This document shows positions 871-8,736 of a stretch of DNA of 23,760 bases, in pieces (the first letter of the stretch is position 1; every line of letters begins with the position of its first letter). Below the pieces are notes generated by a model that worked only from the letters and a program-made list of their open reading frames with translations, searched no databases and had not been told where the DNA came from. Both the position numbers and the translations under genes were made by a program. Origin of the DNA: a virus. The DNA lies in IMG/VR virus record IMGVR_UViG_3300017726_000085, positions 1 to 23,760 of that record. One strand, 5' to 3'.

Positions 871-907
871 CTTCACAAGTCAAGCTATTTGTGGTACAAT
901 ATATATA
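871..907 (+). promoter_or_regulatory. rightward promoter/operator, copy 1
   Basis: TTCACA (872-877), a 17-bp spacer, and TACAAT (895-900) preceded by TGG, an extended -10. The whole arrangement CTTCACAA-N10-TTGTGGTACAATATATATA recurs at 14910-14946 with the same spacing, while the N10 differs. CACAA (874-878) and TTGTG (889-893) form an inverted repeat between the -35 and -10, so a bound repressor would block polymerase. The predicted start is at about 907-908, only 2-3 nt before the ATG at 910. Confidence 0.75.
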
Positions 908-909
908 GA

Positions 910-1128
910 ATGGCTAAAAGAAAGAAATATGGCTCGTTATTGGAGCAGATATCTGCTGAATACGAGAAATACGGACACTATAGGGCACACGTACCTAGTC
1001 ATCATGTGTATTACATACGTGCTGCTTTAAAAGAACGTACTGGTAAAGACTTCAGTGTTGAGGATGTTGAGAAAGCGTTGGTTGCTGAGGGGCATTTACA
1101 GTATGCAACGGGGAAACCCGGAACGTAA
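910..1128 (+). CDS. small conserved-looking protein, probably leaderless (72 aa)
   Basis: The product starts MAKRKKYGSLLEQISAEYEK and looks like a small soluble helical protein with a basic N-terminus and a C-terminal helical part (FSVEDVEKALVAEGHL) that could be a winged-helix or helix-turn-helix remnant. An upstream in-frame TTG at 889 is rejected because it lies inside the -10 region, so ATG 910 is chosen. No Shine-Dalgarno is possible between the predicted start site (about 907) and the ATG, implying leaderless translation. The gene is alone between a strong promoter and a strong terminator, unlike the polycistronic genes that follow. A regulator acting on its own promoter and on the capsid promoter is possible but inferred. 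Family not recognised. Confidence 0.75.
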   Translation: MAKRKKYGSLLEQISAEYEKYGHYRAHVPSHHVYYIRAALKERTGKDFSVEDVEKALVAEGHLQYATGKPGT

Positions 1129-1182
1129 GACCTGATGCTGTACTTATTCCTGCGGGGTTCGCTACAGCCACTCTAAGGCATA

Positions 1183-1224
1183 ATGGACGGAATTTTGACA
1201 ACGTGGATTCCGTCCATCTTTTTT
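1183..1224 (+). terminator. strong rho-independent terminator
   Basis: ATGGACGGAAT (1183-1193) pairs perfectly with ATTCCGTCCAT (1207-1217), an 11-bp stem with a 13-nt loop, followed by CTTTTTT (1218-1224). It ends the single-gene transcript from the promoter at 871-907. An open frame starting in the stem at 1183 is therefore not a likely gene start. Confidence 0.9.
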
Positions 1225-1233
1225 GAGGTTACT

Positions 1234-1431
1234 ATGTTTAAGGCTATGGTACTAGCGTGTGCGCTACATCAGCCTAGCATGTGCGCCGTATTCGAAGATG
1301 AGTATGGCCCGTATGCAGAGAGAGCTGAATGTGTGGAGAGAGTAGAAGAGATTACCACTGTTATTGGTAATGCTTTTCCTTTTCCGCAGACATTCCGCTA
1401 CAGATGCGAACAACAAGGTGAAGCTACATAA
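1234..1431 (+). CDS. small cysteine-containing, possibly exported protein (65 aa)
   Basis: ATG 1234 is chosen because GAGG (1225-1228) sits 5 nt upstream, just past the terminator T-tract; the ATG at 1183 lies in the terminator stem. The protein begins MFKAMVLACALHQPSMCAVF, a short hydrophobic start like a weak signal peptide, and has four cysteines (residues 9, 17, 34 and 58). It resembles two other small proteins here (2380-2565 and 5071-5259) in having a hydrophobic N-terminus and spaced cysteines. Its stop overlaps the next start as TAATG. No promoter was identified between the terminator and this gene, so expression may need read-through. Function unknown. Confidence 0.65.
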   Translation: MFKAMVLACALHQPSMCAVFEDEYGPYAERAECVERVEEITTVIGNAFPFPQTFRYRCEQQGEAT

Positions 1432-1715
1432 TGGCACGTAAGCCTTCCAAGATGCCAGCACGCAATAAAAAGAATTTTCGCTCCACTAAGACTGGCGCGG
1501 GGATGACTGAGGCGGGTGTTAAGGCGTACAGGCGTGCTAATCCAGGTAGTAAGCTGAAGACAGCTGTTACTGGCAAGGTAAAGCCGGGCAGTAAGGCGGC
1601 TAAGCGTAGGAAGTCATTCTGTGCTCGTTCAGCGGGACAGATGAAGAAGTTTCCGAAGGCGGCAAAGAATCCTAACAGCCGTTTGCGTCAAGCCCGTAAG
1701 AGGTGGAAATGTTAA
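1431..1715 (+). CDS. highly basic phage protein, FCAR/RKWxC type (94 aa)
   Basis: Lys/Arg-rich throughout, with GAGMTEAGVKAYRRANPGSK, an internal KRRKSFCARSAGQMKKFP segment and the C-terminal RKRWKC. From memory this pattern marks a small basic family of unknown function (possibly the one filed as DUF6321, unchecked) common in marine phages and some giant viruses. The two conserved cysteines could bind metal or cross-link. The charge suggests binding DNA or a negatively charged virion surface. It overlaps its upstream neighbour as TAATG and the holin start by 7 nt. It is one of five strongly basic small proteins between 1431 and 6492. Confidence 0.8.
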   Translation: MARKPSKMPARNKKNFRSTKTGAGMTEAGVKAYRRANPGSKLKTAVTGKVKPGSKAAKRRKSFCARSAGQMKKFPKAAKNPNSRLRQARKRWKC

Positions 1716-2092
1716 ATCTGCTAGTTGGACCTATTGCAGAACTTGCCGGTACATGGTTATCTGGCAAGGTAGAAGAGAAGAAAGCCGTGTCGGCCACCAA
1801 GGTAGCGAAAGCGCAAGCAGAAGCTATCGTGATGCAGAAGAAGGCCACCGGTGAGATTGACTGGGACTTGGAGATGGCTAAGGGTAGCCAATCCTCGTGG
1901 AAAGACGAGTGGCTTACCATTTTGTTTTCAATCCCGCTTATCATGGCCTTTGTGCCTGGGATGGAAGAAGTAGTTGCAAATGGATTTCAACAACTGGAGC
2001 AAATGCCTGAATGGTACCAGTACAGCTTGGGCGTCATTGTTGCTGCAAGCTTTGGGGTCAGAAGTGCGACAAAGTTTTTCGGAAAGAAGTAA
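1709..2092 (+). CDS. holin-like membrane protein (127 aa)
   Basis: An N-terminal amphipathic segment and an Ala/Lys-rich helix (about 20-55) are followed by the WKDEWLTILFSIPLIMAFVP membrane segment and a second one, YQYSLGVIVAASFGV, ending FGKK. This matches phage holins of the GTA/3TM-like kind, which breach the inner membrane so that endolysin reaches peptidoglycan. The PEWYQY-G-FG-R pattern near the C-terminus is typical as I recall it. ATG 1709 is preferred over GTG 1703 because AAGAGGTG lies directly upstream and overlaps the GTG. It heads the lysis cluster that ends with the lysozyme at 2653. Confidence 0.75.
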   Translation: MLNLLVGPIAELAGTWLSGKVEEKKAVSATKVAKAQAEAIVMQKKATGEIDWDLEMAKGSQSSWKDEWLTILFSIPLIMAFVPGMEEVVANGFQQLEQMPEWYQYSLGVIVAASFGVRSATKFFGKK

Positions 2093-2319
2093 TGGTCACT
2101 GTATTAGAGGATGTGATGGGTATCATGTGGTGCATGCACAATCGAACTACGGAAGAACAGGCGAGGGTAAATCGTGGCAGAAGTAACAATGGAACGTTTT
2201 CTAAAGTGGAAGATACTACCCCGCTTGATGATGATTATGATGTCAATATCCGCTTGGCGGGTAGTGGAATGGTTTATGACTTTACCAAGCCCAACAATGG
2301 AACAGTCGGCGCTAGTTAG
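2092..2319 (+). CDS. uncertain small ORF overlapping the next gene (75 aa)
   Basis: It starts at ATG 2092 in a TAATG overlap with the holin stop, the coupling signature used throughout this cluster. The product begins MVTVLEDVMGIMWCMHNRTT and ends in a polar, Asp/Asn-rich stretch. From 2174 on it overlaps the next gene by 146 nt in another frame, unusual here. Support: the TAATG overlap, and otherwise an 80-nt gap in a compact region. Against: no recognised family and a low-complexity second half. It may be real only at its 5' part, or be an embedded lysis accessory gene. Confidence 0.4.
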   Translation: MVTVLEDVMGIMWCMHNRTTEEQARVNRGRSNNGTFSKVEDTTPLDDDYDVNIRLAGSGMVYDFTKPNNGTVGAS

Positions 2320-2380
2320 CGTTGTGACAGGGGCTATGACGGGTGCTTTTGCGGTATGGCTGGGACATGAGAAACACTGA
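2174..2380 (+). CDS. small two-helix membrane protein in lysis cluster (68 aa)
   Basis: GTG 2174 is chosen because GAGGG (2163-2167) lies 6 nt upstream; ATG 2189 is a weaker alternative. Two hydrophobic segments are visible: ILPRLMMIMMSISAWRVVEW and SALVSVVTGAMTGAFAVWLG, joined by a short PSPTMEQ turn, with a charged end GHEKH. This hairpin topology fits a small holin, pinholin or antiholin partner for the protein at 1709. The stop overlaps the next start as TGATG. I recall similar proteins beside marine phage holins but cannot name a family. Confidence 0.7.
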   Translation: MAEVTMERFLKWKILPRLMMIMMSISAWRVVEWFMTLPSPTMEQSALVSVVTGAMTGAFAVWLGHEKH

Positions 2381-2565
2381 TGTTAAACGAATGGGTTTTG
2401 GTTTTAGTGACGGCGGTGACGCCGTTTGAGTTTGAAGTTGAACCGTTGGTACACACACGAACAATGGCAGAGTGCTATTTTCAGTCCACGGTAACAGAAT
2501 TTGATATAGTGCAGGAGTACAACAAGGAGCTTCTGTGCATTAGGGTGAATAAAGAAATTGATTGA
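2380..2565 (+). CDS. small exported or membrane-anchored Cys-pair protein (61 aa)
   Basis: Hydrophobic N-terminus (MLNEWVLVLVTAVTPFEFEV) followed by a polar part with two cysteines about 21 residues apart (AECYF and LLCIRV). This layout, a signal-like start plus one cysteine pair, recurs at 5071-5259 and loosely at 1234-1431. It starts in a TGATG overlap. Its place just before the endolysin suggests a periplasmic or envelope role in lysis, but there is no lipobox and no coiled coil, so it is not a recognisable spanin. Confidence 0.65.
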   Translation: MLNEWVLVLVTAVTPFEFEVEPLVHTRTMAECYFQSTVTEFDIVQEYNKELLCIRVNKEID

Positions 2566-2656
2566 ATGGTGGGAAGTGTGGCTGGTGGCCATGATAACAA
2601 CAAACACTGTAGTTAACTGCGCAAGATGGTACTTGGATAGGAAAAAGTTTAAATGA
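2558..2656 (+). CDS. very small Trp-rich membrane peptide (32 aa, TTG start)
   Basis: A short ORF between 2380-2565 and the lysozyme. From TTG 2558 it reads (M)IEWWEVWLVAMITTNTVVNC and ends ARWYLDRKKFK: a Trp-rich hydrophobic segment then a basic tail, as in small inner-membrane peptides. Codons just upstream (ATA AAG AAA) would extend it, but a TGA at 2546-2548 closes the frame. AGGGTG (2542-2547) gives a Shine-Dalgarno 10 nt before the TTG. It ends in an ATGA overlap with the lysozyme start (2653-2656), the coupling signature of this operon. A tiny holin or antiholin is possible. Confidence 0.55.
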   Translation: MIEWWEVWLVAMITTNTVVNCARWYLDRKKFK

Positions 2657-3138
2657 AATACAATAGCGAAGTTTTCGTAAATAAGTTGATTGCGCATGAA
2701 GGGCTGCGGCTTGCTGTATACAAAGACAGTTTAGGCATTGATACCATCGGTATCGGGCGTAACCTAGAGGGTCGCGGCATCAGTAAAGAAGAGTTGGATT
2801 GGATGGATATCCCTAGTATGGATGCTGTCTACGAACACGGCATTACAGAAGCGGATGCTATGTATTTGGCCAAGAACGATGTTGCGATTGTTGAAGATGA
2901 ACTGTGTAGAGCGCATGAATGTGTTGCTGACCTAGACGCAGTTCGCCAGCTTGTCGTAATGGACATGGCGTTTAATATGGGGGTTCCACGCCTCTGTAAG
3001 TTTAAAAAGATGTGGGCGGCAATTCATGAAGGTGACTTTGCCACTGCATCTGTAGAGATGCTGGATAGCAGGTGGGCGAAACAAGTAAAGGGACGCGCCA
3101 TCAAGCTTTCAGAAGCTATGAAATCAGGGGAACTGTAA
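2653..3138 (+). CDS. endolysin, T4-type lysozyme (GH24, 161 aa)
   Basis: A glycoside hydrolase family 24 lysozyme that cuts the MurNAc-GlcNAc bond of peptidoglycan. The catalytic triad is visible as HEG (E16), KDSLG (D25) and IDTIGIG (T31), with exactly the spacing of E11, D20 and T26 in T4 lysozyme. The family's C-terminal AFNMG signature is at about 110-114. Length matches the family (about 160 aa). There is no signal peptide or SAR helix, so release through the holin upstream is expected. The start is fixed by an ATGA overlap with the 32-aa ORF; the stop overlaps the next start as TAATG. Confidence 0.93.
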   Translation: MKYNSEVFVNKLIAHEGLRLAVYKDSLGIDTIGIGRNLEGRGISKEELDWMDIPSMDAVYEHGITEADAMYLAKNDVAIVEDELCRAHECVADLDAVRQLVVMDMAFNMGVPRLCKFKKMWAAIHEGDFATASVEMLDSRWAKQVKGRAIKLSEAMKSGEL

Positions 3139-3797
3139 TGTCAGACAAAGAATCGAAGCGTAGTCCGAGAGTTCAAGAACATCTTGATTCTCGCATGGGA
3201 ACAAAATTCAAGGTGGATGATGATACACCACGCCCCAAAAGCCTCAGTAATCTTGTTGATGAGCTATATCATAAACACTCTTTAACACAAAAGGGTGGCA
3301 GATTTGCTGACATGGTAGACCCAAAACCTTCCATGAAAGAAAAAATTACAATTCTTTTAAAAGGTCCGATGGGGAAATTAAAAGAAGATGTATCTCCTGA
3401 ATTGCTTGCACGTCTTCGTCGAGAAGCTAGCGACACAAAAGTCAGTGATGCCCTTAAAAAGAATAAGGGCGGAACTAATGTTAAAATTAAAGAAATACCT
3501 TCGGGCCTTATGCAACAATACCGTGAAAACTTTTATGACAAAGGCCGCGATGATACGCAGTCTTTGACTGAGTATGTTAACAGCGGTCGCGCTGCACGAG
3601 ATTTGAAAGCCGATGGAAAGAAAAAAGGCGGTATGAAAGCCGGTAAGAAACACATCATGGATATGCCAACTAATGTTCCCCGACTACGAGCAGGAGCCAC
3701 ACTAGGCGATTTGAACAAAGATGGCAAGATGTCCGGCTATGAAAAAGTTCGTCAAGCCGCTATTCAAAAGAATATGGATGCCCGAAAGAAGAAGTGA
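3138..3797 (+). CDS. protein with C-terminal EF-hand-like loop (219 aa)
   Basis: ATG 3138 overlaps the lysozyme stop as TAATG and has AGGGG upstream; an in-frame upstream ATG at 3072 is inside the lysozyme gene and rejected. The protein is hydrophilic and Lys-rich, with a helical N-terminal half and a KADGKKKGGMKAGKK basic patch. Near the C-terminus is DLNKDGKMSGYE, which fits the 12-residue EF-hand/dockerin calcium loop (D1, N3, D5, G6, S9, E12), followed by a helix (KVRQAAIQKNMDARKKK). Calcium binding is inferred. No family name; possibly a virion-associated protein. Confidence 0.7.
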   Translation: MSDKESKRSPRVQEHLDSRMGTKFKVDDDTPRPKSLSNLVDELYHKHSLTQKGGRFADMVDPKPSMKEKITILLKGPMGKLKEDVSPELLARLRREASDTKVSDALKKNKGGTNVKIKEIPSGLMQQYRENFYDKGRDDTQSLTEYVNSGRAARDLKADGKKKGGMKAGKKHIMDMPTNVPRLRAGATLGDLNKDGKMSGYEKVRQAAIQKNMDARKKK

Positions 3798-4326
3798 CGT
3801 GCACCCAGTTGAACAGGATATTCGTATCTGGTCAAGCGATTTTTTGGAAATACCGAATGCAAAACTGAACGGTCTTCCTCCTTGTCCTTACGCTAGGAAA
3901 GCTTGGGCAGAGGATAAAGTTACATTTAGCATCAACACCGGCACAGACGGACTGCTAGAGGCAATTCGTAATTTTGATGGTCATGACTACGATATCGTAG
4001 TTTGGGCTGATGAAAATTTACCGGACATGGAATACCTTGATGGTATGTGCGACGGTATCAATGAGTTGATGTCTATAGCTGGAATTGATTTGCACCTTAT
4101 GGTGTTTCATCCCGACTATGACGCAACAGAGGCTGGTCTTGATTTCCTTGTCGATGATGACGTGACAGATGACAGCCTGTCTTACTGCATGGTCTTTGTT
4201 CAGAAACTTTCTAAACTGGATGATGCAGCTCTGTACCTGGAAAAGTCTAATTACTACGAGCACTTTCCCAAGGATGTATATGAAGCCTTAGTATTAGATA
4301 GAAGGAGATTAAGAAATGGCTACTAG
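3778..4326 (+). CDS. conserved-looking protein of unknown function (182 aa)
   Basis: ATG 3778 overlaps the preceding gene by 20 nt; an upstream in-frame ATG (3721) would be 77 nt inside it, and GTG 3799 is an alternative. Visible segments include LNGLPPCPYARKAW, VTFSINTGTDGLLEAIRNFD, YDIVVWADENLPDMEYLDG, a VFHPDYDATEAGLDFL motif and a C-terminal DRRRLRNGY. It is acidic and looks like a compact alpha/beta enzyme-like or binding domain. I believe similar proteins occur in marine phages, but I know of no function. The gene end holds the Shine-Dalgarno AAGGAG (4302-4307) of the next gene. Confidence 0.7.
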   Translation: MPERRSDVHPVEQDIRIWSSDFLEIPNAKLNGLPPCPYARKAWAEDKVTFSINTGTDGLLEAIRNFDGHDYDIVVWADENLPDMEYLDGMCDGINELMSIAGIDLHLMVFHPDYDATEAGLDFLVDDDVTDDSLSYCMVFVQKLSKLDDAALYLEKSNYYEHFPKDVYEALVLDRRRLRNGY

Positions 4327-4549
4327 AGAAGAACAAATGGCTGCGCTTGAAGCACTCGCAAAAAAACTGGGAGTTAAACTCCCTGCAAAAAAGATGGGTG
4401 GTGGCATGGCTAAAATGGCTAAGAAGCGTATGCGTGGCGGAATGGCCAAGAAAATGCGTGGCGGCGGCACAAAAAAGATGATGGGCGGCGGCATGGCAAA
4501 AATGGCTAAGAAGCGTATGCGTGGCGGAATGGCTAAAAAGAAAAAGTAA
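4316..4549 (+). CDS. Lys/Gly/Met-rich repetitive basic protein (77 aa)
   Basis: A short helical start (MATREEQMAALEALAKKLGV) is followed by repeats of GGGMAKMAKKRMRGGMAKK, ending KKKK. The composition (Lys, Gly, Met, Arg, with RGG-like steps) suggests nucleic-acid or capsid-interior binding, as in histone-tail-like or RGG proteins; this is inference. A 35-bp exact DNA repeat with an 87-bp period encodes part of it. A strong Shine-Dalgarno AAGGAG lies 8 nt before the ATG. It ends as TAATG into the SET-domain gene, so the two are translated together, and it is an obvious candidate lysine-methylation substrate. Confidence 0.75.
   Translation: MATREEQMAALEALAKKLGVKLPAKKMGGGMAKMAKKRMRGGMAKKMRGGGTKKMMGGGMAKMAKKRMRGGMAKKKK
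4412..4533. repeat. 35-bp exact direct repeat, 87-bp period
   Basis: Positions 4412-4446 and 4499-4533 are identical over 35 bp (AAAATGGCTAAGAAGCGTAT continuing to GGCGGAATGGC). They encode repeated MAKKRMRGGMA blocks of the basic protein. Such exactness over both codon choice and protein suggests a recent duplication or ongoing slippage/recombination that changes repeat number. Confidence 0.85.
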
Positions 4550-4920
4550 TGCCGTATGTTGATGATTCAACAGTTCACGGCCTCGGCGTATTTGCAGATA
4601 AGGATTACGTTCAAGGTGACATAATTGAACTGTGTCCTTATCTGGTCGCTGATTATAATGACGTGGGAGATGAGTGCATTCTGCACGACTACATGTTCCA
4701 TACGCCATACGAAGATGACGAAGAATACTACATCCCACTTGGCTTTGCTATGGTCTATAACCACAGCGCAAGTCCAAATGCTGAGTGGAGTATTGAAGAT
4801 GGAGATGACCGCTATATTCGGTTTTTTGCGCTCAAAGAAATAAAACAGGGCGAAGAAATATTTCACGATTACGGCGATAAATATTGGGACAGTAGAAATC
4901 ATGGCCAAAAAGAAAACTAA
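4549..4920 (+). CDS. SET-domain protein, putative lysine methyltransferase (123 aa)
   Basis: SET-domain motifs occur in the right order over nearly the whole protein: HGLGVFADKDYVQGD (10-24), matching GxGVFAxxxixkGe; VYNHSASPNAEW (69-80), with the cofactor-contacting NHS; and IKQGEEIFHDYGDKYW (98-113), with the GEE and the candidate catalytic Y108 in DYG. SET proteins transfer methyl from S-adenosylmethionine to lysine. At 123 aa it is close to the minimal viral SET protein of chlorella virus (vSET, about 119 aa); there are no pre-SET or post-SET Cys clusters. It sits directly between Lys-rich proteins (4316 and 4901), with TAATG upstream and a 20-nt overlap downstream, so these are inferred substrates. 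Confidence 0.85.
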   Translation: MPYVDDSTVHGLGVFADKDYVQGDIIELCPYLVADYNDVGDECILHDYMFHTPYEDDEEYYIPLGFAMVYNHSASPNAEWSIEDGDDRYIRFFALKEIKQGEEIFHDYGDKYWDSRNHGQKEN

Positions 4921-5071
4921 AGCTAAGTCAAAAAAGCCGGTGCCCACCAAACCAGCTCTTTGGTCAAAGGCCAAATCTGAGGCTAAGCGCAAATTTAAAG
5001 TGTACCCATCAGCTTACGCAAATGCCTACGCATCAAAGCGCTATAAAGCAATGGGCGGCAGCTGGCGATAA
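4901..5071 (+). CDS. small basic protein, YPSAYANAYASK type (56 aa)
   Basis: Starts at ATG 4901 inside the SET gene and stops at TAA 5069-5071, overlapping the next ATG. It begins with a Lys-rich tail (MAKKKTKAKSKKPVPTK), then ALWSKAKSEAKRKFKVYPSA, YANAYASKRYKAMGGSWR. The WSxAKxxAKxKFxVYPSAYANxxASKxYK pattern is, from memory, widespread in marine phages and large DNA viruses, usually with no known function. The histone-like Lys tail and overlap with the SET gene make it a second candidate substrate. The short length makes it easy to miss, but the motif is convincing. Confidence 0.8.
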   Translation: MAKKKTKAKSKKPVPTKPALWSKAKSEAKRKFKVYPSAYANAYASKRYKAMGGSWR

Positions 5072-5259
5072 TGAAACATGTTTTTCTCCTGTTTGTATTT
5101 TTGGGTACAGGGGAAAATCAAAAGATGGTTAGCAACGATATGTATTTTGCCAACCTGAATGATTGTGTTTGGTTTGCACAAACACTACACAAACAAGGGG
5201 AGAAGATAACCTCCTATTGCTTACCCAAGCTTATAGATAAAGATGTAAAGGTGTACTGA
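5071..5259 (+). CDS. small exported Cys-pair protein (62 aa)
   Basis: Begins MKHVFLLFVFLGTGENQ, a short signal-peptide-like segment, followed by a polar domain with two cysteines (NDCVWFAQTL and SYCLPKLID) about 18 residues apart. The CxxFAxxL...YCxPK layout resembles small periplasmic-type proteins I recall from marine phages and is shared in outline with 2380-2565. A disulfide is likely if exported. It is coupled by TAATG upstream and TGATG downstream. Function unknown; perhaps superinfection exclusion or envelope modification (inference). Confidence 0.7.
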   Translation: MKHVFLLFVFLGTGENQKMVSNDMYFANLNDCVWFAQTLHKQGEKITSYCLPKLIDKDVKVY

Positions 5260-5957
5260 TGGACCCCATTAGCGCAATGGCGACAGCATCGGCGGCTTTC
5301 GGTGCAATTAAAAAAGGATTTGCCGTAGGCCGTGACATCGAACAGATGGCTGGGGATTTGTCGCGTTGGATGGGCGCCATGTCTGACCTAGAACAGGCAG
5401 AAAAAGAAGCAAAGAACCCACCTATATTTAAAAAGCTATTTGCTGGACAGACTGTAGAACAAGAAGCAATAGCTGCATTTGCTAACAAAGAAAAGGCAAA
5501 ACAACAGCGCTACGAACTACAGCAGTGGATTTCCCTAACTATGGGCAAGTCTAAGTGGGACTCCCTCGTAGCAATGGAAGGACAAATTCGTAAGCAGCGT
5601 AAAGAAACACTTTACAAACAGCGCGAACGTAGACAGAAGTTTGTAGAGATTGTAGCGTGGATAGTCATGGTTGGCATCGGCATCACTGCTCTTTACTTTT
5701 TTATTACATTTCTTAAAGGACAAGTAGCACACGCAGCAGACCCAGATTACGTAACTTGCCGATTGAAGGGCTGCACGAATGTAGAAGACCAGCGTGTGTG
5801 TGTTTATCACGGAGTAAACAATACTGTAGATACTTTGTTTTTTCGTATGGACGAGTGGTTCCCCCGTGAGTTTCAGTGTAAGTATGACCCTAACGATACC
5901 AAACCACCAAGCATACAAGAAACATTTAAACAGATAAGAAAGTCGCAGAAAAAATAA
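5259..5957 (+). CDS. single-pass membrane protein with four-Cys C-terminal domain (232 aa)
   Basis: The N-terminal 126 residues are soluble and helical (MDPISAMATASAAFGAIKKG, then charged coiled-coil-like helices rich in Glu, Lys and Gln). One membrane segment follows (about 129-152, VEIVAWIVMVGIGITALYFF), and then an AHAADPDYVTC start to a C-terminal domain with four cysteines (167, 172, 181 and 207). Topology would be N-terminus in the cytoplasm, Cys domain in the periplasm. The MDPI-A-A-A-FGAIKKGF start and WMGAMSD segment are recurring features of a marine phage family with no assigned role, as far as I recall; it may be virion-associated or act in lysis or DNA entry. Start fixed by TGATG. 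Confidence 0.7.
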   Translation: MDPISAMATASAAFGAIKKGFAVGRDIEQMAGDLSRWMGAMSDLEQAEKEAKNPPIFKKLFAGQTVEQEAIAAFANKEKAKQQRYELQQWISLTMGKSKWDSLVAMEGQIRKQRKETLYKQRERRQKFVEIVAWIVMVGIGITALYFFITFLKGQVAHAADPDYVTCRLKGCTNVEDQRVCVYHGVNNTVDTLFFRMDEWFPREFQCKYDPNDTKPPSIQETFKQIRKSQKK

Positions 5958-6238
5958 TGGCTTATCAGGGAGGATTGCGTAAATGGTTCAAAGAGGATTG
6001 GCGGGACGTATCCACAGGAAAAAAGTGTGGGCGTAAATCATCTTCGAAGTCAAAGAGAAAGTATCCAGCGTGTCGCCCGAAGGCGGTCGCAGATAGGATG
6101 TCCAAAGGACAGAAGGCTACAGCCACCCGTAAGAAACGGAAAGCCGGAAATACAGGAGGAAAACCTACCTCTATTCGATGGTCCGTTTCACCCTCTGGAC
6201 GTAAACAAAAGGCCAAACGGAAAAAGTCAAAAGCATGA
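5957..6238 (+). CDS. basic protein, GLRKWFKEDW type (93 aa)
   Basis: Opens MAYQGGLRKWFKEDWRDVST, followed by KKCGRKS, KRKYPACRPKAVADRMS and AGNTGGKPTSIRW, then a Lys/Arg-rich tail. This order (GLRKWFKExW...CGRK...YPxCxP...GNxGGKPT) matches a small viral family of unknown function that I recall, possibly the one filed as DUF5872 (unchecked). The two conserved cysteines and basic charge suggest zinc or nucleic-acid binding. Overlaps are TAATG upstream and ATGA downstream. It may be an early-injected or packaging-linked protein. Confidence 0.78.
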   Translation: MAYQGGLRKWFKEDWRDVSTGKKCGRKSSSKSKRKYPACRPKAVADRMSKGQKATATRKKRKAGNTGGKPTSIRWSVSPSGRKQKAKRKKSKA

Positions 6239-6492
6239 CGCGTAAACGTAATTACAAAAAAGAATATGCTAGCTACCATAGCAAGCCGAAACAGATTAAA
6301 CGTCGTGCTTCCCGTAACGCCGCCCGTGCCATCATGGCTAAAAGAGGCAAAGTGACTAAGGGGGACGGCAAAGACGTACACCATACTACTGGCAATCCTA
6401 TGAACAATAAGAAGCTATCTGTTAAGTCTCGTAGTAGGAACCGGTCTTTTGCCCGTACTAAAACAGGAAGAAAGAGAAATCCTCGTGCCTAA
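6235..6492 (+). CDS. mini HNH-like basic protein next to terminase (85 aa)
   Basis: Starts in an ATGA overlap. The basic N-terminal half (NYKKEYASYHSKPKQIKRRA, SRNAARAIMAKRG) leads to GDGKDVHHTTGNPMNN and SVKSRSRNRS. The DVHH-x2-GNPxNN segment resembles the first half of the HNH nuclease beta-beta-alpha-metal fold, which is followed in full HNH proteins by NL-x-(V/L) and a further His. Here NNKKLSVKSRSRNRS is the corresponding stretch, so the active site may be complete or degenerate. HNH proteins beside terminase genes aid cos cleavage in some phages; a packaging role is inferred. Confidence 0.75.
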   Translation: MTRKRNYKKEYASYHSKPKQIKRRASRNAARAIMAKRGKVTKGDGKDVHHTTGNPMNNKKLSVKSRSRNRSFARTKTGRKRNPRA

Positions 6493-6877
6493 ACAACTTA
6501 CAGAATTGCAATCTAATTTTCTAGACGCTTTATTTGGTGAGGCCAAAGGCAACTACACCAGAGCGTTGAAAGCGGCGGGGTACTCGACAAACACAAACCC
6601 CTATGCTATAATGCAAGCTCTTCGCACAGAAATTATTGAACGTGCGGAGATGGAGATGGCTGCTAACGCCCCAAAGGCTGTATTGTCTATGGTAGGCGTC
6701 ATTGATGACCCCACAGCTGTTGGTAATAGAGAGCGCCTCGCTGCATCACAGCAAATTCTTGATAGGGTGGGGCTTTCCAAAGTGGAAAAGCTTAACGTTT
6801 CTTCGGATAAGCCAATAGGCGTATTTATCTTACCTGCAAAGAATGATGACGATAGCACAGAAACTGAATCCGACTGA
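6485..6877 (+). CDS. terS: terminase small subunit (130 aa)
   Basis: GTG 6485 is preferred to TTG 6449 because the latter extends far into the preceding gene; the overlap is then 8 nt. The N-terminal helix-turn-helix (LTELQSNFLDALFGEAKGNY, TRALKAAGYS) is characteristic of small terminase subunits, which recognise the phage DNA end or pac/cos site. The following helices (IERAEMEMAANAPKAVLSMV and RERLAASQQILDRVGL) match the usual oligomerisation region. It ends in an acidic tail (KNDDDSTETESD). Position just before TerL supports the call. Confidence 0.85.
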   Translation: MPKQLTELQSNFLDALFGEAKGNYTRALKAAGYSTNTNPYAIMQALRTEIIERAEMEMAANAPKAVLSMVGVIDDPTAVGNRERLAASQQILDRVGLSKVEKLNVSSDKPIGVFILPAKNDDDSTETESD

Positions 6878-7181
6878 CAGATACGATAGGGCTAAGGGAC
6901 CTACGGTGCCTTGGGGATACAAAAGGGCAGACCATGACCCTCAGCTTTTCGACCCCATAGAAGAGCAGTTAGAAGCCCTACAGCAGGGCATAGAGTACTT
7001 AAAGGCATCATCCTACCCTGAAGTTGCCAGATGGCTCACGGAGTACACAGGGCGCCCCATAACGCCTATGGGATTGTGGAAACGTATAAAGACTGACAAA
7101 TCTGACAGACGGAAATATGTTGAACAAAAACGCCGTGCCGCCAAGGCCCAAGACCAAGGCAACATCAGCACCCAAAACTAA
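6843..7181 (+). CDS. helix-turn-helix protein between TerS and TerL (112 aa)
   Basis: Contains VPWGYKRADHDPQLFDPI, then EEQLEALQQGIEYLKASSY and PEVARWLTEYTGRPITPMGL, ending in a basic helix (WKRIKTDKSDRRKYVEQKRR). The SYPEVARWL-x-GRPITPMGLWKR segment is a helix-turn-helix like that after the catalytic domain of large serine recombinases, here standalone. I recall this protein beside marine phage terminases. ATG 6843 overlaps TerS by 35 nt, ATG 6846 is equivalent and GTG 6906 would avoid overlap. It could help DNA-end recognition or act as a regulator (inference). Confidence 0.75.
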   Translation: MMTIAQKLNPTDRYDRAKGPTVPWGYKRADHDPQLFDPIEEQLEALQQGIEYLKASSYPEVARWLTEYTGRPITPMGLWKRIKTDKSDRRKYVEQKRRAAKAQDQGNISTQN

Positions 7182-8736
7182 AGAAGAAAAAGAAAAGGCG
7201 AAGTTAGCCCGACAAAAACGTTCTGCGCGTATACAAATGAATATGGCGCAGAAGAAGTTAAAGAGGCTAGAAGCGCAAGAAAATCCAGAAGCGGAGATGG
7301 AGTTTGTTGGCTCCAGTTACACCTCACAAGAACAAGAACCTGAAAAAATTCTGTTTGAGCCTAATCCTGGTCCGCAAACAGAATTTCTGGCCTCATCAGA
7401 ACGGGAAGTATTATACGGTGGCGCAGCAGGGGGTGGCAAGTCTTACGCTCTCATTATTGACCCGCTTCGCTACTGTAGCAACAAGAATTTTAATGCGCTA
7501 ATTCTACGTCGTACAAATGATGAATTGCGCGAACTGATACACAAAAGTCAAGAACTATACCCTAACGCTTATCCGGGCGCTAAATGGATGGAGAAGAAAA
7601 GCCAGTGGACTTTTCCCTCCGGTGCCAGAATATGGATGACATACCTTGAGCAGGACAAAGATGTTCTCCGTTATCAGGGTCAGGCATTTACATATATAGG
7701 CATAGATGAATTAACACAGTATGCGACACCTTATGCTTGGGATTATTTACGTTCGCGCCTTAGAACAGCAGACCCGTCATTACCAGTCTTTATGCGGGCA
7801 ACAACGAACCCAGGCGGCCCTGGACATGCATGGGTCAAGAAAATGTTCATTGACCCCGAAATCCCTGGCAAACCTTTTTGGGCAACGGACATCACCACCG
7901 GTGAAACCCTTGTATACCCTAGTCGTCACAGTAAAGCAGGGATACCGCTCTTTAAGCGTCGGTTTGTGCCAGCTAAGTTGCTTGATAACCCATATCTTTA
8001 CGAAGCAGGTGATTATGAGGCAATGTTGCTCTCACTGCCAGAAGTACAGCGTAGGCAGTTACTAGAGGGTTCATGGGATATTGCGGAAGGCGCTGCCTTC
8101 TCAGAGTTTGACAGGAGATACCATGTTATTGAGCCTTATCAAATCCCAAATTCATGGCGCAAATTTAGGGCTTGTGACTACGGTTACTCCTCTGCTTCCG
8201 GTGTTCTTTGGTTTGCTGTAGACCCCGCAGACGAGACTCTGATTGTCTACAGAGAACTGTACGTAACAAAAGTTCCTGCGAAAGAACTGGCACATATGGT
8301 GCTTGATGAAGAAGAAGGCGAGGCGATTCATTACGGTGTACTTGACTCGTCCCTCTGGCATAAACGCGGAGATACTGGGCCGTCACTAGCAGAGCAAATG
8401 ATTGTTGAAGGATGCAGGTGGCGTCCCTCCGACAGAAGCCGCGGTAGTCGTGTAGCAGGTAAGAACGAGTTGCATAGGCGCCTACAGATTGACGAGGATA
8501 CTGGGCGTGCAGGAATAGAAATAATGAGCAACTGTACAAACTTGATTGCTCAGTTGCCCACTCTTCCGATGGATAAAACTAATCCAGAAGATGTAAATAC
8601 TAAAGTAGAAGACCACCTATATGACGCCCTCAGATACGGTATCATGACACGCCCTCAGTCGCGTTCCATTTTTGATTTTCCTAACGGAATACCTACCCAT
8701 AAGTGGCGACCCGCTGATACAACCTTTGGATATTAA
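7117..8736 (+). CDS. terL: terminase large subunit (539 aa)
   Basis: The DNA-packaging motor: ATPase plus nuclease at the portal. Walker A GGAAGGGKS (101-109), Walker B YIGIDEL (193-199, D197/E198), coupling motif TTNP (229-232), nuclease aspartates in ACDYGY (D354), GVLDSS (D410) and the C-terminal DHLYDALRYG (D499/D503). All catalytic positions are present. The first 60 residues are a basic, Ala/Lys/Glu-rich extension; ATG 7117 overlaps the previous gene by 65 nt without a strong Shine-Dalgarno, so starts at 7237, 7243 or 7297 are possible. Confidence 0.96.
   Translation: MLNKNAVPPRPKTKATSAPKTKEEKEKAKLARQKRSARIQMNMAQKKLKRLEAQENPEAEMEFVGSSYTSQEQEPEKILFEPNPGPQTEFLASSEREVLYGGAAGGGKSYALIIDPLRYCSNKNFNALILRRTNDELRELIHKSQELYPNAYPGAKWMEKKSQWTFPSGARIWMTYLEQDKDVLRYQGQAFTYIGIDELTQYATPYAWDYLRSRLRTADPSLPVFMRATTNPGGPGHAWVKKMFIDPEIPGKPFWATDITTGETLVYPSRHSKAGIPLFKRRFVPAKLLDNPYLYEAGDYEAMLLSLPEVQRRQLLEGSWDIAEGAAFSEFDRRYHVIEPYQIPNSWRKFRACDYGYSSASGVLWFAVDPADETLIVYRELYVTKVPAKELAHMVLDEEEGEAIHYGVLDSSLWHKRGDTGPSLAEQMIVEGCRWRPSDRSRGSRVAGKNELHRRLQIDEDTGRAGIEIMSNCTNLIAQLPTLPMDKTNPEDVNTKVEDHLYDALRYGIMTRPQSRSIFDFPNGIPTHKWRPADTTFGY

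Follow-up and report, generated by a model that had tools for sequence, protein, structure and literature searches.

SET-domain proteins have already been annotated in phages, as well as in giant viruses, and the obvious relative of the phage protein described here is vSET (A612L) of chlorella virus PBCV-1, a stand-alone viral SET protein of about 120 amino acids that acts on eukaryotic histone H3K27, as the names of its PDB entries also state. Among prokaryotes, cpnSET has been reported to methylate Hc1, a basic DNA-binding protein of its own cell, and Go1-SET of Methanosarcina mazei to methylate MC1-alpha, likewise a DNA-binding protein of the cell that encodes the enzyme (PMC3980110); the methylation of Hc1 was not reproduced with the C. 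trachomatis protein NUE (PMC2904774). A survey of the HMO-2011-type phages contains neither the words SET domain nor methyltransferase in its text (PMC9038755), and we found no report on SET proteins in phages of this type in the open-access literature.

Here we analyze a virus record of 23,760 bases (hereinafter, the window) that encodes a SET-domain protein immediately behind a lysine-rich repeat protein, which we denote KMG. What is new at this locus is the KMG-SET unit in HMO-2011-type phages, which is near-invariant in one clade; the association of SET with a particular sequence type of KMG; and KMG itself, an overlooked, unannotated core gene that is missing from the annotation of HMO-2011.

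The SET protein and its gene neighbourhood

The window contains no end repeats. Its terminase large subunit (TerL; 7117-8736, plus strand) is of the HMO-2011 type, being 66-68% identical to those of Puniceispirillum phage HMO-2011 and Roseobacter phages CRP-1 and CRP-345, and by this comparison the phage of the window is an HMO-2011-like marine phage. Portal, capsid and tail genes are located 3' of TerL, and a lysozyme gene 5' of it. KMG and SET are thus encoded close to the packaging and structural genes, in the lysis, packaging and structural part of the genome. This position and the shared strand suggest that they are expressed late.

The three open reading frames (ORFs) that the original prediction had singled out, and the gene overlaps on both sides of SET, were confirmed. 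KMG (4316-4549, plus strand) is an ORF for a 77-amino-acid Lys/Met/Gly/Arg repeat protein, a candidate substrate of SET, with a homologue 5' of SET in close relatives. The SET gene (4549-4920, plus strand) encodes a vSET-like protein of 123 amino acids, a predicted protein-lysine N-methyltransferase; its start shares one base with the KMG stop (TAATG), and the gene overlaps by 20 nt an ORF for a basic protein of 56 amino acids (4901-5071, plus strand) that belongs to phrog_27331 and weakly resembles DUF5872. RNA structure was sought at the KMG-SET junction and nothing was found (z 0.40). Directly 5' of KMG lies a gene of the family phrog_28122, a distant DUF1415-like protein (3721-4326, plus strand), and another basic protein, which is DUF5872-like, is encoded at 5957-6238 on the plus strand. 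Small basic genes are common in this part of the window (5 of the 18 genes in 889-7181, counted by hand from the ORF list), and by a hand calculation a randomly placed gene would adjoin one or more of them with p of about 0.5 and two with p of about 0.07, so that the Lys-rich neighbourhood of SET in a single window carries little weight. The ORF at 5259-5957 weakly matches a SMODS-associated 4TM effector (PADLOC 3.6e-5; Pfam 0.012, under the cut-off), a similarity that probably reflects a membrane segment only.

The SET protein matches the Pfam SET domain (PF00856) with an E-value of 6.2e-15 and 55.9 bits, compared with a gathering cut-off of 22.4, over the entire profile (positions 1-105 of 105; residues 11-109 of the protein), and contains no other domain. 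The top sequence match among solved structures is PBCV-1 vSET (phmmer 4.6e-16), in an alignment that spans the GxG motif, NHS..PNA and YGDxYW and places Tyr108 opposite Tyr105 of vSET. The residues G11-x-G13, N71-H72 and E103-I104 are retained along with the candidate catalytic Tyr108. When the window SET is aligned with 29 diverse phage and bacterial relatives, 14 columns are invariant, including G13, V14, F15, N71, H72, E103 and Y108, and G11 is nearly so. The AF2 model of the protein (pLDDT 83.9) superimposes on vSET with a Z score of 14.0 (rmsd 2.1 over 101 residues) and on Plasmodium SET7 (PfSET7) with a Z score of 15.1; SET chains, with Z scores up to 15.1, make up the whole of the best 50 matches listed in the Foldseek and VIA-align comparisons. 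With a median dN/dS of 0.146 (2194 pairs, 78 clade members), the SET gene is under purifying selection. The protein is an intact minimal SET domain, and the resemblance is far beyond chance; the SET motifs and the likeness to chlorella virus vSET that had been noticed by eye are borne out by profile, sequence and structure comparisons alike, with the cofactor and catalytic residues kept. We regard the protein as a conserved, predicted lysine methyltransferase that is probably active. A role as a defence or counter-defence gene was considered and rejected because no PADLOC model matches the SET protein.

KMG and SET across related viruses

More than 100 relatives of SET were detected in IMG/VR, and 128 SET-bearing viral loci were compared after the removal of duplicates. 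Of the 82 loci of the close clade (SETs of about 60% identity and above) that have a readable upstream flank, 81 place the KMG stop at most 12 nt from the SET start, and in the sole exception (L272) a single gene separates the two, making the upstream pairing convincing. On the 3' side, at least four families alternate: among 77 scorable loci, the gene directly behind SET is of the GSKF type in 32, DUF5872-like, that is, related to the 5957 protein of the window, in 29, of the 4901 type in 5, of the GVHKKN type in 2 and of some other kind in 9. The stable unit is thus KMG followed by SET. No more than 8 SET loci contain the 4901-type gene, all within the subclade of the window itself; because the 3' gene varies, the placement of SET between two Lys-rich genes, initially viewed as a module, is general in the close clade for its upstream half but is otherwise a feature of this subclade. 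The Lys-tailed 4901 protein was dismissed as a partner of SET given that unrelated genes replace it in most relatives.

The co-occurrence of SET with Lys-rich genes that the original prediction anticipated in related phages holds within the close clade but not beyond it. At or below about 51% identity, no KMG was found beside the phage SETs examined, among them those of the loci L345-L347, which are about 50% identical to the SET of the window, and a huge-phage group at 33-45% identity; no Lys-rich neighbour was seen beside these or the bacterial SETs examined. A near-constant adjacency, as a dedicated enzyme-substrate pair would show, is seen in the close clade but not among the more distant SETs. 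In the phage isolate collection, the nearest SET is a 39% match from a 735-kb uncultured phage, and the SET of the window is encoded by no isolate of the collection. A SET 52% identical to that of the window is encoded on an Alphaproteobacteria MAG contig (L276:2977-3345), where it adjoins genes without a phage-like look, and is a possible cellular donor or relict. The most divergent KMG-SET pair (L077-L080) includes a long KMG with many KKKMRGGGMVKAA repeats that are interrupted by a non-repeat segment.

KMG consists of repeat units such as MAKKxMRGGG, with about 32% lysine in the repeat part, and has no match in Pfam, PHROG or NCBIfam. Loci sampled by a KMG DNA pattern contained SET in 4 of 80 cases, whereas sampling via the upstream phrog_28122 gene yielded KMG in 77 of 80 loci and SET in 6; in the remaining three, the sequence ends within 200 bases of the phrog_28122 gene. 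Altogether, about 5-8% of the sampled KMG loci carry SET. The phrog_28122 gene is the most constant neighbour of KMG, whether SET is present or absent, and the phrog_28122-KMG pair is common to the phage of the window, HMO-2011 and CRP-345. In CRP-345, KMG is gp77; in HMO-2011, a phage without SET, it is an unannotated ORF of 50 amino acids between phage1322_66 and phage1322_65 (L510:4503-4655; about 50628-50780 of GU557055, minus strand). KMG is a near-universal core gene at this locus in the HMO-2011-type group. SET-less phages often encode another small protein, of 38 amino acids, in the slot that follows KMG; in L431 and other SET-less loci, the occupant is a protein of 36-40 amino acids of the type KYLGWALLYMGKPFT..GNWFWK.H..VLDWN. 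Given that KMG is near-universal and mostly found without SET, and that the slot is otherwise occupied in SET-less phages, SET is an accessory gene behind a core gene. A substrate never found without its enzyme, as expected of a dedicated pair, is not what these loci present, because KMG lacks SET in most of them, and methylation cannot be essential to the basic role of KMG. The upstream gene was set aside as a clue to the function of KMG because it offers only a weak DUF1415 likeness (in 11 of 24 members of phrog_28122) and an AF2 model (pLDDT 90) without a confident fold match in the PDB.

KMG as a candidate substrate of SET

We compared the KMG sequences of 143 non-redundant loci, 69 with and 74 without SET. 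The motif GKAKMAK is present in 55 of the 69 KMGs accompanied by SET and in none of the 74 others, and KKKKM is distributed similarly (47/69 versus 2/74), whereas GGV, GGAV or GGSV occur in 4 of the former and in 70 of the latter. The groups were sampled differently, via SET, via the KMG pattern and via the neighbour gene, but the neighbour-sampled set displays the same contrast. On the tree of phrog_28122, SET undergoes 7 state changes; for GKAKMAK on the best tree, 3-5 of the 7 contrasts agree and none opposes (5:0 gives p 0.06), and the three well-supported independent contrasts all or mostly agree, with p 0.05 out of reach at n=3. With only 3-7 independent contrasts on the phage tree, the association between KMG type and SET is statistically insecure. 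Moreover, one SET clade is found in several phrog_28122 backgrounds and the KMG of one locus (L050) is a mosaic whose SET-proximal half is of the SET type, which makes the exchange of a linked block an adequate alternative; two other loci, L077 and L269, possess SET along with features of the SET-less type. A KMG type that tracks SET is the pattern expected of an enzyme and its substrate, but is not proof of such a relationship. We also searched for a Lys-only repeat position as a signature of a methylation site, but among 249 repeat units from loci with SET and 260 from loci without it, no position is restricted to lysine in the former and tolerant of arginine in the latter.

KMG is the leading, although unproven, candidate substrate of SET. 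Under the mechanism that we propose, a stand-alone SET methyltransferase would be translated from a start overlapping the KMG stop and would methylate repeat lysines of KMG, the core protein encoded on the same message, soon after both are synthesized; we consider this the likeliest of the readings but rate it somewhat short of an even chance. Methylation might alter charge-neutral contacts or the readability of the basic KMG protein, and as a result its putative affinity for nucleic acid or for a partner molecule could change. The roles in DNA condensation, packaging or ejection that have been suggested are ideas only. The broader picture, in which abundant marine phages would carry a self-contained protein-methylation cassette, with a vSET-like enzyme that tunes the phage's own histone-tail-like repeat protein, added to an older, unmethylated KMG, would amount to a viral analogue of histone methylation inside bacteria; it seems to us possible but rather unlikely.

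SET could instead merely occupy a variable slot behind KMG, as other small genes do in SET-less phages, and this counts against KMG as the substrate. An active SET methyltransferase might have a host protein as its main target, be it a nucleoid, ribosomal or defence protein, with the slot serving as an accessory-gene site that provides coupled late expression. That SET is optional within the HMO-2011-type group and that the contents of the slot vary in SET-less phages would fit such a role, and the distant phage and bacterial SETs adjoin unrelated genes, indicating that the SET family as a whole needs no KMG; however, the close-clade SET is found outside the slot in only one of the 82 testable loci, although the 3' side has been reshuffled, and the KMG type follows SET, so that we view a host target as a real possibility but a rather unlikely one. 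It is improbable that the target of SET is a different phage protein of the late region, basic or structural (a DUF5872-like protein, DUF6321, the 4901 protein, or a capsid or tail protein), with KMG as a bystander or scaffold: several small basic proteins are encoded in the same gene run, and DUF5872-like genes frequently follow SET directly, but none of these genes is a constant neighbour of SET. Least probable of all appears a purely historical association, in which SET was inserted once behind KMG, was then disseminated by homologous recombination at the KMG repeats and has a small-molecule, automethylation or other role, for although repeated state changes of SET, of the kind expected from recombination at one site, the spread of one SET clade across backgrounds and the mosaic KMG could all be so explained, the 3' gene should then be bound to SET as tightly as KMG, which it is not, and SET is under constraint.

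If the conserved SET does act on the Lys-rich KMG, a histone-code-like modification would exist in a bacterial virus, and the pair would provide a simple two-gene system to probe the effect of lysine methylation on a basic protein, with the SET-less relatives as a natural control for the KMG-SET phages. As an overlooked core gene, KMG matters independently of SET.

Comparison with known SET systems

Among phages, the fold of the window SET recurs in A0A6J5L8Y2 from an uncultured Caudovirales phage (match 6.5e-10), and annotated SET-domain proteins of giant viruses have the same fold. Unlike the window SET, the distant phage relatives lack a KMG neighbour, whereas the isolates HMO-2011, CRP-1 and CRP-345 are close to the window phage by TerL but lack this SET. 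With vSET, the window SET shares both its viral origin and its stand-alone, minimal form, but its gene adjoins a Lys-rich phage gene, and its bacterial host would have no histones, histone H3 included. The chlamydial system, cpnSET or NUE together with Hc1 and Hc2, resembles KMG-SET in that a SET enzyme and a Lys-rich basic protein are encoded in one genome; however, the chlamydial enzymes are of cellular origin, one of them, NUE, being secreted into the nucleus of the host, whereas the window SET is viral, and no similarity of KMG to a known family was detected. Finally, Go1-SET and MC1-alpha exemplify a prokaryotic SET reported to act on a DNA-binding protein encoded by the same cell, a relationship of which KMG-SET is a predicted counterpart only, and the folded archaeal protein MC1 differs from KMG, whose repeats are predicted to be of low complexity.
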